This document shows positions 17,150-22,507 of a stretch of DNA of 64,000 bases, piece after piece. Every line of letters begins with the position of its first letter. The first letter of the stretch is position 1. Both the position numbers and the translations under genes were made by a program. Below the pieces are notes generated by a model, which was given only the letters and a program-made list of their open reading frames with translations, made no database searches and was not told where the DNA came from. The stretch comes from Armatimonadota bacterium (lineage in GTDB: Bacteria > Armatimonadota > Fimbriimonadia > Fimbriimonadales > GBS-DC), in the NCBI GenBank assembly GCA_013359125.1, contig JABWCR010000002.1, positions 62,001-126,000 on the forward strand, written 5' to 3'.

Positions 17150-18189
17150 GGCTGAGTCCAAGGACGCGGCAGAAAGAGCCGCTCGTAAATCTGGATGGCA
17201 TATCGATCGGTCATTCCGGCGATGTAGTCGCAGATTTTGATCTCGACCGACTCCTTCGATGTGGGAACGAAGCCTTCTGGAAGCGTTTCAGGATGCTGGA
17301 TGTAATGGCCAAACAGTCCGCCGATCAGACCTTCCGCTCGCTCTCGCTCGTTGACCACTTTGGGGTTCTGATAGACCGTTTCGAACATGAAAGTCTTCAT
17401 CTCGTTCATCGCCTCTAGCATGGGCGGGCTGAACGCGACCGTTCCTGCTTGTCGGCTGGTGTCGGTCAGATCGACGACCATGGCGGCGATGCGCTGGCTG
17501 TGGCCGTTTCCTAATCGTTCTTTCAGAGTCTTGGGCAGGTCGTCGTCAGACAGCAGGCCGGCCCGTTTCGCATCGTCCAGATCGTGATTGAGATAGGCGA
17601 TCCGATCGGATAGTCGGACGACTGCCGCTTCTGGGCTGCTCGCGCTCGCCGCCTCGTCTTGGCCGAGATCGGACGCGCCTTTAGAGTGCCCGGCAATGCC
17701 TTCTCGCGTTTCGTAAGTCAAGTTGAGACCCTTGCCATCGTTCTCAAGCGCGTCCACAACGCGCAAACTCTGTTCGTAATGCCGAAAGCCTCCCGTTTGA
17801 CCGTGCGCTTTCATCAGCGCGTCTAAGGCGGCCTCGCCGGTATGTCCAAAGGGCGGATGGCCAAGATCGTGTCCCAGAGCGATCGCCTCGGTCAGGTCTT
17901 CGTTAAGGCGCAGCGCTCTTGCAACCGTGCGAGCAATCTGAGCCACTTCCAGCGTGTGGGTCAGGCGGGTGCGGTAATGGTCTTCGCCCGGATCGAGAAA
18001 CACCTGCGTCTTATGTTTTAGCCTACGGAAGGCCTTGCAATGGACAATCCGGTCGCGATCGCGCTGAAAGGCGGTCCGAACCGGGCAGGGAGGCTCTTGC
18101 CGAACTCGCCCTCTGGACCGGCTGCTCTTGGTCGCCCAGTCGGACAGGAGTTGTTCTTCCAGCGCTTCGTTCTGCTCGCGGATGGTCAT
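17146..18189 (-). CDS. dGTPase-like dNTP triphosphohydrolase
   Basis: This 347-aa HD-superfamily protein has the conserved start FQRDRDRIVHCKAFRRLKHKTQVF (about 41-64), the metal-binding YRTRLTHTLEV histidine, ALGHDLGHPPFGHTGE (about 104-119) and a later Asp in AYLNHDLDDA. This matches the type 2 dGTPase-like (Dgt) proteins that remove triphosphate from dNTPs. The ATG overlaps the TGA of nusB, so the gene is translationally coupled to it. The real substrate range of this subfamily varies. Confidence 0.92.
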   Translation of the reverse strand: MTIREQNEALEEQLLSDWATKSSRSRGRVRQEPPCPVRTAFQRDRDRIVHCKAFRRLKHKTQVFLDPGEDHYRTRLTHTLEVAQIARTVARALRLNEDLTEAIALGHDLGHPPFGHTGEAALDALMKAHGQTGGFRHYEQSLRVVDALENDGKGLNLTYETREGIAGHSKGASDLGQDEAASASSPEAAVVRLSDRIAYLNHDLDDAKRAGLLSDDDLPKTLKERLGNGHSQRIAAMVVDLTDTSRQAGTVAFSPPMLEAMNEMKTFMFETVYQNPKVVNERERAEGLIGGLFGHYIQHPETLPEGFVPTSKESVEIKICDYIAGMTDRYAIQIYERLFLPRPWTQP

Positions 18190-18611
18190 TGGGCGCCGTT
18201 TTCGGTCGGCGTTTCGTCGGCGATAGCGCCCAACACGCCGTTCACAAATCGACCCGACTCTTCCGTGCCGTACTTCTTGGCCAGTTCCACGGCTTCGTTC
18301 AGGGCGACCGCTTTGGACAGATCCCTATTGAAGATCAGTTCGTAGGCGCCTATGCGGAGCACGTTTCGGTCGAGCACTGCCAAGCGATCCAAAGTCCAAT
18401 CCTTGAGCCGGTCGGAGATCCGCTTGTCCAACATGGCTCGATGTTCGCAGATTCCCATGACCAGTTCTCGCAGATATTCCTCGAGCGACGGCTCCAACTT
18501 GGCGACGGGGACGACCTCCTCCAAGGCTTCGACGGGGCTTTTGCCGGCGACCTCGATCTGATAGAGCGTCCGTAGCGCCCACTCTCGCGAAGGTCGTCTG
18601 TTCAGGCTCAT
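18186..18611 (-). CDS. nusB: Transcription antitermination factor NusB
   Basis: This is a 141-aa NusB. It starts with NRRPSREWALRTLYQIEVAG, and the C-terminal half carries the family signature VLRIGAYELIF...KAVALNEAVELAKKYG...RFVNGVLGAI. NusB with NusE binds boxA RNA and supports rRNA antitermination. It overlaps accC (ATGA) upstream and the dGTPase-like gene downstream. The efp-accB-accC-nusB order is a widely conserved bacterial arrangement, which supports the identity of its neighbours. Confidence 0.96.
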   Translation of the reverse strand: MSLNRRPSREWALRTLYQIEVAGKSPVEALEEVVPVAKLEPSLEEYLRELVMGICEHRAMLDKRISDRLKDWTLDRLAVLDRNVLRIGAYELIFNRDLSKAVALNEAVELAKKYGTEESGRFVNGVLGAIADETPTENGAQ

Positions 18612-19975
18612 CGGCGGGCCACTGCGTCGTCTGGCGCAAGCACAGAACGCGCGAAGTCCGTAGTCGCCTGGCCTGCAACGAAGCGCGGGTCCGTAATCAG
18701 CCTGATCAAGAACTCTCGACTAGTGCGGAAGCCTGTCAGTCGAGTCTCGTGCAGCGCGCGTTCGAGCCGAGCGATCGCCTGTTGACGATCCGGCGCCCGA
18801 ACGATGATCTTGGCTAACAACGGATCATAGAACGGAGGCATCGAATAGCCCGTGTAGAGGTGGCTGTCTACCCGTACCCCGGGTCCGCCCGGAGGAATCC
18901 ACTGGGTGACATCGCCGACCGAGGGCGCAAAATCGTTCTCCGGAGATTCAGAGGTCAGCCGCGCTTCGATCGCCCAGCCGTTGATCTTCAACTGAGACTG
19001 TTCGACGTCCAACTTCTCGCCGGCAGCGACACGAATCTGCGTTTGGACGATGTCAACTCCGGTGATCAGTTCGGTTACGGGGTGCTCCACTTGAAGCCGT
19101 GCGTTCATCTCGATAAAATAGACTTGCCCCTCGCCGTCCATCAGAAACTCGACCGTGCCGGCGTTCGTGTAGCCGACGGCCTTTGCCAATCGCACGGCTC
19201 CCTCTCCCAATTGAGCTCTCAAAGCAGATGAGACGGCGGGAGACGGCGCCTCTTCGATCATCTTCTGATGGCGCGGAGTCTGCACCGAGCATTCGCGCTC
19301 AAAAAGATGGATCGCATTGCCGTGCTGGTCGGCCATCAATTGAACTTCGATGTGCCGCGGATCAGAGATGTACTTCTCCAAATAGACGCTCGGCGACCCA
19401 AATGCAGACTGCGCTTCGTTCTGTGCGATTCTCAAGGCCGGTATCAGTTCGTCCCGTGCGAAAACTCGCCGGATTCCGCGTCCCCCGCCTCCCGCAGCCG
19501 CCTTGATCAAGACTGGATAGCCCAATTCGTCCGCCAGCTGGTACGCTTCGTCCTCGCTGTCCACCGGTCCGTCGGACCCGGGCAGCACGCTAACGCCGAC
19601 CGACCGCGCTATCTGCCGCGCAACGGCTTTGTCTCCGACCGAACCGATCGCCTTGGGAGGCGGACCGATGAAGACGATTCCAGTGCCTTCACAGGCTTCG
19701 GCGAAGCTTTCGCGTTCAGACAGATAGCCGTAGCCCGGGTGGATGGCTTCGCAACCCGTGATCTTGGCCGCCATCAGGATGTTGGGCAGATTGAGGTAAC
19801 TATCAGTGCTTGGCGGTAGGCCGACGCAGACCGATTCGTCCGCCATCTGAACGTGAAGCGAGTCCTTGTCTGCCGTGGAGTAAACTGCGACCGAACGGAT
19901 GCCCATCTCGCGGCAGGCGCGAATGATCCGCAGCGCGATCTCTCCTCGATTAGCGACAAGTATTTTCTTAAACAT
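18608..19975 (-). CDS. accC: Biotin carboxylase AccC
   Basis: This 455-aa biotin carboxylase is full length for AccC. The order is the N-terminal domain MFKKILVANRGEIALRI, the ATP-grasp glycine loop AAGGGGRGIR (about 161-170), and the catalytic segment EMNARLQVEHPVTE (about 289-302) carrying the Glu and Arg that carboxylate biotin. One oddity is the loop normally reading QRRHQK, which here is QTPRHQK with one extra residue. AccC carboxylates biotin on a carrier protein. The AccB-like gene in this operon has no biotinyl lysine, so the carrier is in question. No Shine-Dalgarno precedes the ATG. Confidence 0.93.
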   Translation of the reverse strand: MFKKILVANRGEIALRIIRACREMGIRSVAVYSTADKDSLHVQMADESVCVGLPPSTDSYLNLPNILMAAKITGCEAIHPGYGYLSERESFAEACEGTGIVFIGPPPKAIGSVGDKAVARQIARSVGVSVLPGSDGPVDSEDEAYQLADELGYPVLIKAAAGGGGRGIRRVFARDELIPALRIAQNEAQSAFGSPSVYLEKYISDPRHIEVQLMADQHGNAIHLFERECSVQTPRHQKMIEEAPSPAVSSALRAQLGEGAVRLAKAVGYTNAGTVEFLMDGEGQVYFIEMNARLQVEHPVTELITGVDIVQTQIRVAAGEKLDVEQSQLKINGWAIEARLTSESPENDFAPSVGDVTQWIPPGGPGVRVDSHLYTGYSMPPFYDPLLAKIIVRAPDRQQAIARLERALHETRLTGFRTSREFLIRLITDPRFVAGQATTDFARSVLAPDDAVARR

Positions 19976-19977
19976 GA

Positions 19978-20343
19978 TCAGTAGTTGGCGTGATCCGGAT
20001 TGGGGCAGCGCACGGAACCGTTACGATTGTCATAAAGGTAAGGCTGCTGTACGATTGGACAACTCAGCATCTCGTTCGGGAAGCGCAGAACCCGAAGAGA
20101 ATCGGGCGGCGCTTCGTCGGCATTGATTCTCTCTACTTGAATGCCCATTCGAATCTGGTTCAGGTTCTCCTTGCACTTGACCGACTCGGCGGCCTGCTTG
20201 GTCTCGGTAATTCGGCTGACGGGCTTTTCTCCAGGCTTGCGCTTCTTTCCGTCTGGTTGCCAATAGAGCCAGACCATCATGAGCGCCATCACTATCACAA
20301 GAGCAGCCATGGCGCCGATCAGGGAACTGCCGTTTTTTCTCAT
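19978..20343 (-). CDS. Degenerate pilin-like membrane protein between accB-like and accC
   Basis: This 121-aa protein has a short basic N-terminus (MRKNGSS), one hydrophobic helix (about 8-28) and a polar C-terminal domain. The segment SVKCKENLNQIRMGIQ resembles the CxxNLKQIGLA stretch that follows the first helix in DUF1559-type pilin-like proteins. The C-terminal CPI...CPNPDH also recalls them. The prepilin cleavage site would be G5-S6, but the conserved Glu5 of mature pilins is replaced by Gly. The ATG overlaps the AccB-like stop, so it is co-translated. I infer a pilin-derived membrane protein; its role in this operon is unknown. Confidence 0.6.
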   Translation of the reverse strand: MRKNGSSLIGAMAALVIVMALMMVWLYWQPDGKKRKPGEKPVSRITETKQAAESVKCKENLNQIRMGIQVERINADEAPPDSLRVLRFPNEMLSCPIVQQPYLYDNRNGSVRCPNPDHANY

Positions 20344-20798
20344 GACTCTTCGCCACCCGAGACCTCTATCACCGCGATCGGTTGTGCGAACTCGACGGGC
20401 GCATTGTCGGCTATTCGCCATTCGGTTAGAACACCGTCGGTGGGCGATGGCACGTCGATTTGAATGCCCATCGCCTCTATCGTGCCAAGGCTCTCTCCGC
20501 GCTTTATGGTTGCGCCCGGAGCAATTTTGGCCTGATAGAAGAATCCGACCAACGGCGATTGTGCTTCTACCAGAGCGCTGCCCGGCCAATCGACGCTGAG
20601 TTCGGTTTCTTCTACGGCAGCCGCTTCCATCGGAGCGTAGAAAAGGGGGGGCAACAGTTCGTGGCTTTCGTCATTGGCGCGTCTCAATCGAATTCGCCCT
20701 TCGGGGCCAGAGAGCGACACTTCGGTCAATCGCCGTCGAACCATCAGGTCCGCCAGGCGCTGTATTTCGTTCAACAATTCCGGGTTCAGATCTTCCAT
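20340..20798 (-). CDS. AccB-like biotin carboxyl carrier homologue lacking the biotinyl lysine
   Basis: This 152-aa protein has the AccB layout: an N-terminal helix (LLNEIQRLADLMVRRRLTEVSL), a linker rich in Pro, Ala and Glu, and a C-terminal biotinyl-type beta domain. That domain reads SPLVGFFYQA (81-90), GTIEAMGIQIDV (105-116) and PVEFAQPIAVIEV. In a working carrier the tetrapeptide is EAMK; here it is EAMG, with Gly111 at the lysine position. The codon is a clean GGC. The protein therefore cannot be biotinylated at the usual site. I chose the ATG at 20798; a TTG at 20807 is in frame. It overlaps the upstream membrane-protein gene and sits in the conserved efp-accB-accC-nusB position. Confidence 0.85.
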   Translation of the reverse strand: MEDLNPELLNEIQRLADLMVRRRLTEVSLSGPEGRIRLRRANDESHELLPPLFYAPMEAAAVEETELSVDWPGSALVEAQSPLVGFFYQAKIAPGATIKRGESLGTIEAMGIQIDVPSPTDGVLTEWRIADNAPVEFAQPIAVIEVSGGEES

Positions 20799-21901
20799 GA
20801 GAAGCAAGCGGTTTCGACCAGCCTCAAGAGATAGCTTAATAGAATCACGGCAAAGCAGACGTAGAGCAGCATCGCGGCCATTTCGTTTGCCTGCATCGAC
20901 GCTTGTACGGCCTCTGTGCTTCCCGTCGGCCCCGACGGACCGCCTGGCGTCAGCGAGATCTTTGCCAGGACGTTGTCAGCCGTCTGAAGCAATTTGAACA
21001 TGGAGCCCTTCAGCGAATCGTGCAACAGGTAGGCGCCGCCGATGATGCTTCCGACCGTTACGGGCGCCAAGAGCTGATACTTCTGCTTCTGGTGCTCGTT
21101 GTAGATGACGCACTCTTTGCACCGCTCCTTTTTTTCGAAATCGGAGAGTTGGCGATTGTAGGGAATGAATCGCACATTCATCTCTGGATCGGCGGCGGGC
21201 GCTTTGTTCATCATGGCGGTTACGATCGCCTTCTCCTCGCACATGCACCCGACGCGCTCGCGCCAACAAGTGCGTCGAGAATGGTAGATCGGGCATCGCT
21301 CGCGCACGTAGCTTCGGCAAAAGGGCAGTTGCCAGCATTTGCCCATAAACCGGGCGGTCGGCACTTCCTGTTGTTTGACGTCCTGCCCGACGCCCAACAC
21401 TTGATCCAACTCGGAGCCGTACTTTAACCGCCTGATCCCGCGATTGACCCCGTCGAACACAGCCAAGAAAACGCCAGGGATGAAGAGCACCCACGCCATG
21501 TTTTGCATCTGCCCAAATGCCAGATCGACCATCCGGTTGGAGCCGGACAGTTCGCCCTTGAACTGCGTGAGGGTGAAGGGAATTGCGAAGTAAAGCAGCA
21601 CGGCCACGACGATCATGAAGTAGCCGAGCGACGATTCGTCGATATAGAGCCAGCAGGCGCCCATGACCAAAAGCGCGCAGCCCATGATGCCCAACTTTCC
21701 GACGTTGTTGATCGTGTTGACGTTGTCGGGGCTTGCAGCGCTGGCTTCGTCTAGTCGACCGGTTACTAGCCAAAAGAGGAGGATCAGCAGCGCCAAGACG
21801 GAAAGCCCCGATCCGAAATAGACGAATCCTAAGGCGATGCTGCTGATGCGCTCCAATACTCGGGCCTGAGCGGCTTCTGCGGCGTACTTAGCAGGATCCA
21901 T
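20786..21901 (-). CDS. Cys-rich multi-pass membrane protein, unknown function
   Basis: This 371-aa protein is not one I recognise. It has hydrophobic helices at about 23-46, 69-86, 92-112, 134-149, 278-294 and 351-369. Between helices four and five is a basic soluble loop with eight cysteines at 189, 195, 203, 212, 219, 221, 261 and 264; the last two form CKEC. The cluster suggests a metal or Fe-S site, or disulfides if outside the cell. A Gly/Pro/Ser stretch (about 319-328) precedes the last helix. The gene lies between efp and the AccB-like gene and overlaps the latter, so it probably shares the operon's function. Confidence 0.8.
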   Translation of the reverse strand: MDPAKYAAEAAQARVLERISSIALGFVYFGSGLSVLALLILLFWLVTGRLDEASAASPDNVNTINNVGKLGIMGCALLVMGACWLYIDESSLGYFMIVVAVLLYFAIPFTLTQFKGELSGSNRMVDLAFGQMQNMAWVLFIPGVFLAVFDGVNRGIRRLKYGSELDQVLGVGQDVKQQEVPTARFMGKCWQLPFCRSYVRERCPIYHSRRTCWRERVGCMCEEKAIVTAMMNKAPAADPEMNVRFIPYNRQLSDFEKKERCKECVIYNEHQKQKYQLLAPVTVGSIIGGAYLLHDSLKGSMFKLLQTADNVLAKISLTPGGPSGPTGSTEAVQASMQANEMAAMLLYVCFAVILLSYLLRLVETACFSWKI

Positions 21902-21940: not shown

Positions 21941-22507
21941 CTAAGCCTTCTTGATGCGTTCGATATACAGCCCTTCGCGCGTGTTGACCTTAAGCAGGTC
22001 GCCGACGTTGATGTGAAACGGCACCTGGACGACCGCGCCCGTCTCCAGCGTGGCAGGCTTGTATCCGCCCGACGCCGTGTCGCCGCGAAAGTTGGGATCG
22101 GTCTCTTTGACCTCCAACTCCATGAACTCGGGAATTTCGGCGCCGACGATCTGGCCGTCGTGATTGAGGATTTGAACTTCCATCGATTCCTTCATATACT
22201 TTGAAACGTCTTCGAACAGGCTCTTAGGCACGTGCGCCTGGTCGTAGGATTCCAAGTCCATCAGTACATAGTCGTCCCCGTCTTCGTACAGGAGTTGCAT
22301 TTTCCTTCGCTCGATATACGCGCTTTCGAAACGCTCGCCCGACTTGAAAGTCCGCTCTCGGATGGCGCCGTCTCGCAGGCGCTTCAGTTTCACGCGCATG
22401 ATTGCGCTGCCCCGACCCTGATGCGACTGTTGATAATCAACGATCGTATTGATCTCGCCGTCTACAATAATGTTCAACCCGCTACGAAAATCGGCAGTAT
22501 CGACCAC
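21941..22507 (-). CDS. efp: Elongation factor P (arginine-tip form)
   Basis: This 188-aa EF-P has all three beta domains, including the C-terminal signature GDTASGGYKPATLETGAVVQVP (about 144-165). EF-P relieves ribosome stalling at proline runs. The loop that enters the peptidyl-transferase centre, usually PGKG with a modified lysine, reads QGRG here, with Arg at residue 32. Arg32 is the form rhamnosylated by EarP in other bacteria; the preceding proline is also lost. The GTG start has GGAGGA 7 nt upstream. The gene leads the accB-like/accC/nusB run, a conserved arrangement. Confidence 0.95.
   Translation of the reverse strand: MVDTADFRSGLNIIVDGEINTIVDYQQSHQGRGSAIMRVKLKRLRDGAIRERTFKSGERFESAYIERRKMQLLYEDGDDYVLMDLESYDQAHVPKSLFEDVSKYMKESMEVQILNHDGQIVGAEIPEFMELEVKETDPNFRGDTASGGYKPATLETGAVVQVPFHINVGDLLKVNTREGLYIERIKKA

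Follow-up and report, generated by a model that had tools for sequence, protein, structure and literature searches.

Fatty-acid synthesis starts with acetyl-CoA carboxylase (ACC), and the locus described here raises the question of what an AccB-like protein encoded beside its biotin carboxylase gene, accC, might do without the lysine to which biotin is normally attached. The gene lies within a 64,000-nucleotide stretch of an Armatimonadota genome (hereafter the window; contig JABWCR010000002.1, assembly GCA_013359125.1), and a sequence-only reading had described its product as an AccB homologue with EAMG in place of EAMK, the glycine (Gly111) being encoded by GGC. Translation of the frame confirmed this description (...GTIEAMGIQID...). 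We refer to this paralogue of AccB, the biotin carboxyl carrier protein (BCCP), as AccB2, and to the normal carrier as AccB1.

A biotinyl fold without its attachment residue

AccB2 matches the Pfam family Biotin_lipoyl over residues 80-144 (E 1.5e-9, 38 bits against a cut-off of 22.1). Its match to the BCCP profile TIGR00531 spans residues 9-145 and scores 36.8 bits, under the cut-off of 115.2, although AccB1 of the same genome also falls short of that value, at 97.8 bits. A structure model was built with AlphaFold2 from an alignment of 13 sequences; mean pLDDT is 75.6, most of the barrel exceeds 90, and a linker around residues 43-68 is disordered. When the model was compared with solved structures using Foldseek, the E. 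coli biotinyl domain (1bdo) was among the best matches (E 1.1e-5) and chain G of 4hr7, a BCCP chain in the structure of the complex that E. coli BCCP forms with biotin carboxylase (BC), matched with an rmsd of 1.3 Å. No plant BADC appeared in a search of solved structures. The protein thus resembles AccB in its predicted N-terminal helix, C-terminal barrel and fold matches, as well as in its place in the accC operon, and it has the biotinyl barrel expected of a functional BCCP. It differs from one on three counts: the EAMK-type lysine, the TIGR00531 score and the thumb insertion, which is shorter, with a G85-G95 spacing of 10 against 17 in 74/74 AccB1 sequences. As modelled, AccB2 retains the biotinyl fold without the attachment residue.

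On the minus strand of the window the genes are ordered efp - membrane protein - AccB2 - small protein - accC - nusB (Table 1). The membrane protein gene shares 13 bp with the start of AccB2, the stop codon of AccB2 runs into the ATG of the small protein (ATGA), and the accC stop is overlapped by nusB, so these overlaps indicate a single, tightly packed operon. The order is conserved across Armatimonadota. An efp-accB-accC-nusB locus had been named in the sequence-only reading; that order holds, with the qualification that genes for the membrane protein and the small protein intervene and flank AccB2. The membrane protein matches no Pfam family above cut-off and has eight cysteines (C189, C195, C203, C212, C219, C221, C261 and C264) that are invariant in 40 homologues, a pattern suggestive of a metal or Fe-S site. 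The small protein also lacks a Pfam match; its residues C56, C94, C112 and H117 are conserved in 55 homologues.

Table 1. Features of the AccB2 locus (window positions) and of the AccB1 gene (genome coordinates).
Feature	Position	Strand	Basis
Elongation factor P (EFP), head of the conserved gene order	21941..22507	-	TIGR00038, 229 bits, above cut-off
Membrane protein, 371 aa, without family	20786..21901	-	Profile search, homologue alignment, adjacency
AccB2, AccB/BCCP paralogue without the lysine, 152 aa	20340..20798	-	Translation, Pfam match, orthologues
AccB-type N-terminal helix and hairpin, residues 6-39 (predicted)	20682..20783	-	pLDDT about 67-76; TIGR00531 match from residue 9
Biotinyl barrel, residues 76-146, lysine-less hairpin, short thumb (predicted)	20361..20573	-	AlphaFold2, Foldseek, G-G spacing
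Gly111 codon GGC at the biotinylated-lysine position (EAMG vs EAMK)	20466..20468	-	Translation and aligned column
Small protein, hydrophobic N-terminal segment	19978..20343	-	Sequence, homologue alignment
AccC, biotin carboxylase of acetyl-CoA carboxylase type	18608..19975	-	TIGR00514, 639 bits (cut-off 626.5)
NusB	18186..18611	-	Naming in the sequence-only reading; conserved order; homologues beside AccC
AccB1 (normal AccB), 162-aa frame, EAMK and FYRGPSPNDPPY thumb	G000:C1:110188-110574		Genome search

Two AccB paralogues and repeated change of the lysine

The assembly to which the window belongs (2.82 Mb in 47 contigs, listed as 100% complete) contains nine biotinyl/lipoyl-type matches. Among the proteins that it encodes are AccB1, which has EAMK, and a propionyl-type BCCP, also with EAMK, on contig C4; the latter adjoins a second AccC-like protein (G000:C4:111212-113061). 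BirA and AccD are both found in the genome. Since AccB1, BirA and AccD are all present, a normal biotin-dependent ACC is possible without biotin on AccB2. The suggestion that AccB2 had replaced the normal accB is therefore wrong as worded, because the accC locus holds AccB2 while a functional AccB is encoded elsewhere, and the EAMK-bearing AccB1 on another contig rules out AccB2 as a substitute for a sole AccB. A biotin-independent AccC complex, likewise proposed from the sequence, is unsupported given BirA, AccD and AccB1, and a biotin-free ACC was rejected on the presence of the first two.

The window protein was matched in 16/18 genomes of its family; besides the window genome itself, these comprise 14 near-full-length matches of 33-41% identity and a fragment in G010. 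All of these relatives have glycine at the lysine column, as VLGI. The relatives with AccB2 are Armatimonadota (Armatimonadetes bacterium DC, HRbin15, Fimbriimonadales KatS3mg016/018 and others), and among the orthologues retrieved from named genomes in this group 12/12 share glycine, encoded by GGC or GGT, so its presence at the site is not a matter of chance. We counted nothing in favour of a sequencing error or a mutation confined to one genome, and we give this explanation almost no credence, given that independent assemblies carry glycine in every family orthologue; the comparison likewise excludes the case of relatives with EAMK at this locus. The order to which the window belongs forms one group of 24 tree rows (support 99), 0/24 of which have lysine, and so the loss there is old; glycine itself is kept at the site throughout nearly the whole order.

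Across the phylum, an AccB-like match was obtained in 283/291 genomes, and almost all of the genomes sampled retain the second AccB paralogue next to accC. From panel searches and fetched genome regions we drew a set of 74 AccB1 and 86 AccB2 sequences (the window included), with one of each per genome, AccB2 being assigned mainly by its EFP, membrane protein and AccC neighbours and in a few cases by sequence. For 16 of the AccB2 genomes no AccB1 is listed, the AccB1 regions there being uncollected. AccB1 is uniform, with lysine in 74/74 sequences and a thumb G-G spacing that is always 17, and it is seldom near accC. In AccB2 the spacing ranges from 9 to 17 and the residue at the site is Gly in 39, Lys in 25, Arg in 10, Asp in 3, Thr in 3, and Ser, His and Asn in 2 each, such that 61/86 lack lysine. 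The two paralogues fall on opposite sides of a single branch of the AccB tree, with an SH-aLRT of 88 (the threshold for a starred branch is 95).

Within AccB2, the AccB tree requires at least 11 changes between lysine and other residues, and a tree of AccC, NusB and EFP (72 genomes, 780 columns), which is better resolved, requires at least 14; starred, that is, well-supported, branches force 10 of these. The parsimony counts leave the direction of change unfixed, and loss is the natural direction because AccB1 and E. coli AccB carry lysine. The recurrence of loss across the phylum suggests that the biotin site was already dispensable beforehand. The lysine-bearing AccB2 proteins (25/86) may still be biotinylated.

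Recurrent loss of the key residue in AccB2 alone is also what a functionless, decaying duplicate of AccB1 would show. Among the closer pairs of the 12 lysine-less orthologues from named genomes, pairwise dN/dS is 0.06-0.26, with dN lower in the barrel, which indicates purifying selection on the lysine-less protein; this range, with retention across the phylum and of glycine through nearly a whole order, makes decay highly improbable, and AccB2 was rejected as a pseudogene on the dN/dS values.

Linkage to accC, the membrane protein and ACC

Two genomes (G150 and G151) are without AccB1, AccB2, the membrane protein, an ACC-type AccC and a full AccD, and have kept EFP and NusB. This joint absence of AccB2 and ACC represents one event in one reduced genus. 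The two genomes (family f3, genus g37) are reduced to 1.5 Mb at 97% completeness and are apparently ACC-less; they still have BirA and a propionyl-type BCCP. AccB2 also seemed to be absent from G016, G243 and G258, but EFP is missing there too, and in G016 also NusB, so that an assembly gap is the probable cause; we set these three genomes aside, which leaves G150/G151 as the informative cases.

The operon has come apart in two ways. Other genera of the window's family have AccB2 parted from accC and, in most, beside the membrane protein; in f3, the order's largest family, it is the membrane protein that lies elsewhere, AccB2 having remained next to the small protein and accC. Splits on opposite sides of AccB2 imply that neither neighbour alone is an obligate genetic partner, and the separation from accC in the window's family implies that AccC is possibly not the sole partner. 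The breaks between AccB2 and accC in that family are at L060-L070 and L324-L326; the operon of the window genome is intact.

One reading of this pattern is that AccB2 works chiefly with the eight-cysteine membrane protein, its barrel docking the carboxylase or some other partner at the membrane, and that the link with accC is secondary. The two genes overlap in the window, the split in the window's family kept them adjacent with accC-nusB elsewhere, and both are missing from G150/G151 despite the presence of EFP; the opposite split in f3, however, leaves AccB2 with the small protein and accC, and in G017 AccB2 and the membrane protein are on separate contigs. We regard a role centred on the membrane protein as unlikely.

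E. coli AccB is a proposed autoregulator of its own operon, an activity ascribed to its N-terminal part. AccB2 might similarly regulate its operon with no need of biotin, for which its location in the accC operon and the dispensability of the lysine would speak. Yet it is the barrel and not the N-terminal part that is better conserved in AccB2, and the protein persists apart from accC in the window's family, and so autoregulation appears less likely still than a chief partnership with the membrane protein.

A proposed non-catalytic subunit and its counterparts

Our preferred reading, to which we assign a probability of roughly 60%, places AccB2 in the biotin-carboxylase subcomplex of ACC as a non-catalytic subunit that would bind AccC and/or AccB1. 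It draws on several observations: the predicted barrel lacks the lysine, selection on the protein is purifying, its gene overlaps its neighbours in the accC operon and AccB1 is encoded separately; AccB2 also occurs phylum-wide, its lysine has changed repeatedly, and it is absent together with ACC. AccB2 would keep the AccB fold while being unable to hold biotin at the usual site and, made together with AccC, would associate with AccC and/or biotinylated AccB1. It might then serve as a scaffold by taking up part of the BCCP positions, or it might compete with AccB1 and so lower activity; present data favour neither. AccB2 thus probably now serves acetyl-CoA carboxylase as a structural or regulatory component.

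The closest parallel is with plants, where BADC (biotin/lipoyl attachment domain-containing protein) interacts with BC and BCCP and has been termed either a 'glue' or an inhibitor (PMC11926652, PMC7712654); this non-catalytic subunit has been described as unique to plant ACC (PMC11926652). Like Arabidopsis BADC1-3, AccB2 is related to BCCP through its biotinyl domain but lacks the biotinylation motif, and its genome also encodes a separate, biotinylatable BCCP (AccB1) as well as BirA. Unlike BADC, it is bacterial and encoded in the accC operon, and its lysine has changed many times within one phylum in which lysine-bearing members persist. By analogy, AccB2 most likely resembles BADC in its way of working, through what we propose to be convergence. 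A bacterial BADC counterpart, as first suggested from the sequence, is hence the best-supported reading: the lysine-less domain, AccB1 and the accC operon speak for it, and binding to AccC or AccB1 is the part that we infer. A structural role of the kind proposed for AccB2 is also known for a BCCP region in Chloroflexus aurantiacus BC1, a fused BC-BCCP protein whose BCCP-region beta-hairpin is required for the tetramer and for effective activity, although there the BCCP is fused to BC, keeps EAMKM and is biotinylated (PMC11077971). No report of a lysine-less bacterial BCCP was found in the open-access literature, which is weak evidence, as subscription papers and preprints lie mostly outside that coverage and our sequence comparison covered Armatimonadota.

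More tentatively, and at rather less than even odds, the ACC of Armatimonadota could be a five-subunit enzyme in which an obligate, non-biotinylated AccB2 stands beside biotinylated AccB1. This would be an independently evolved BADC system whose biotin site was lost at least 10 times because the role of AccB2 was already structural, and the eight-cysteine membrane protein would possibly be a further partner.

If the subunit reading is correct, AccB2 would allow the passage from carrier protein to structural part to be studied, and a pseudo-carrier spread across a phylum would offer natural lysine-bearing and lysine-less relatives in which scaffold and inhibitor can be compared. For annotation, caution is due with the accC-operon gene of Armatimonadota that is called AccB by its position, since it is mostly not a biotin carrier. 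Lysine-bearing and lysine-less AccB2 occur within one family in the pairs L255/L247 (f21), L316/L253 (f12) and L317/L291 (f35).
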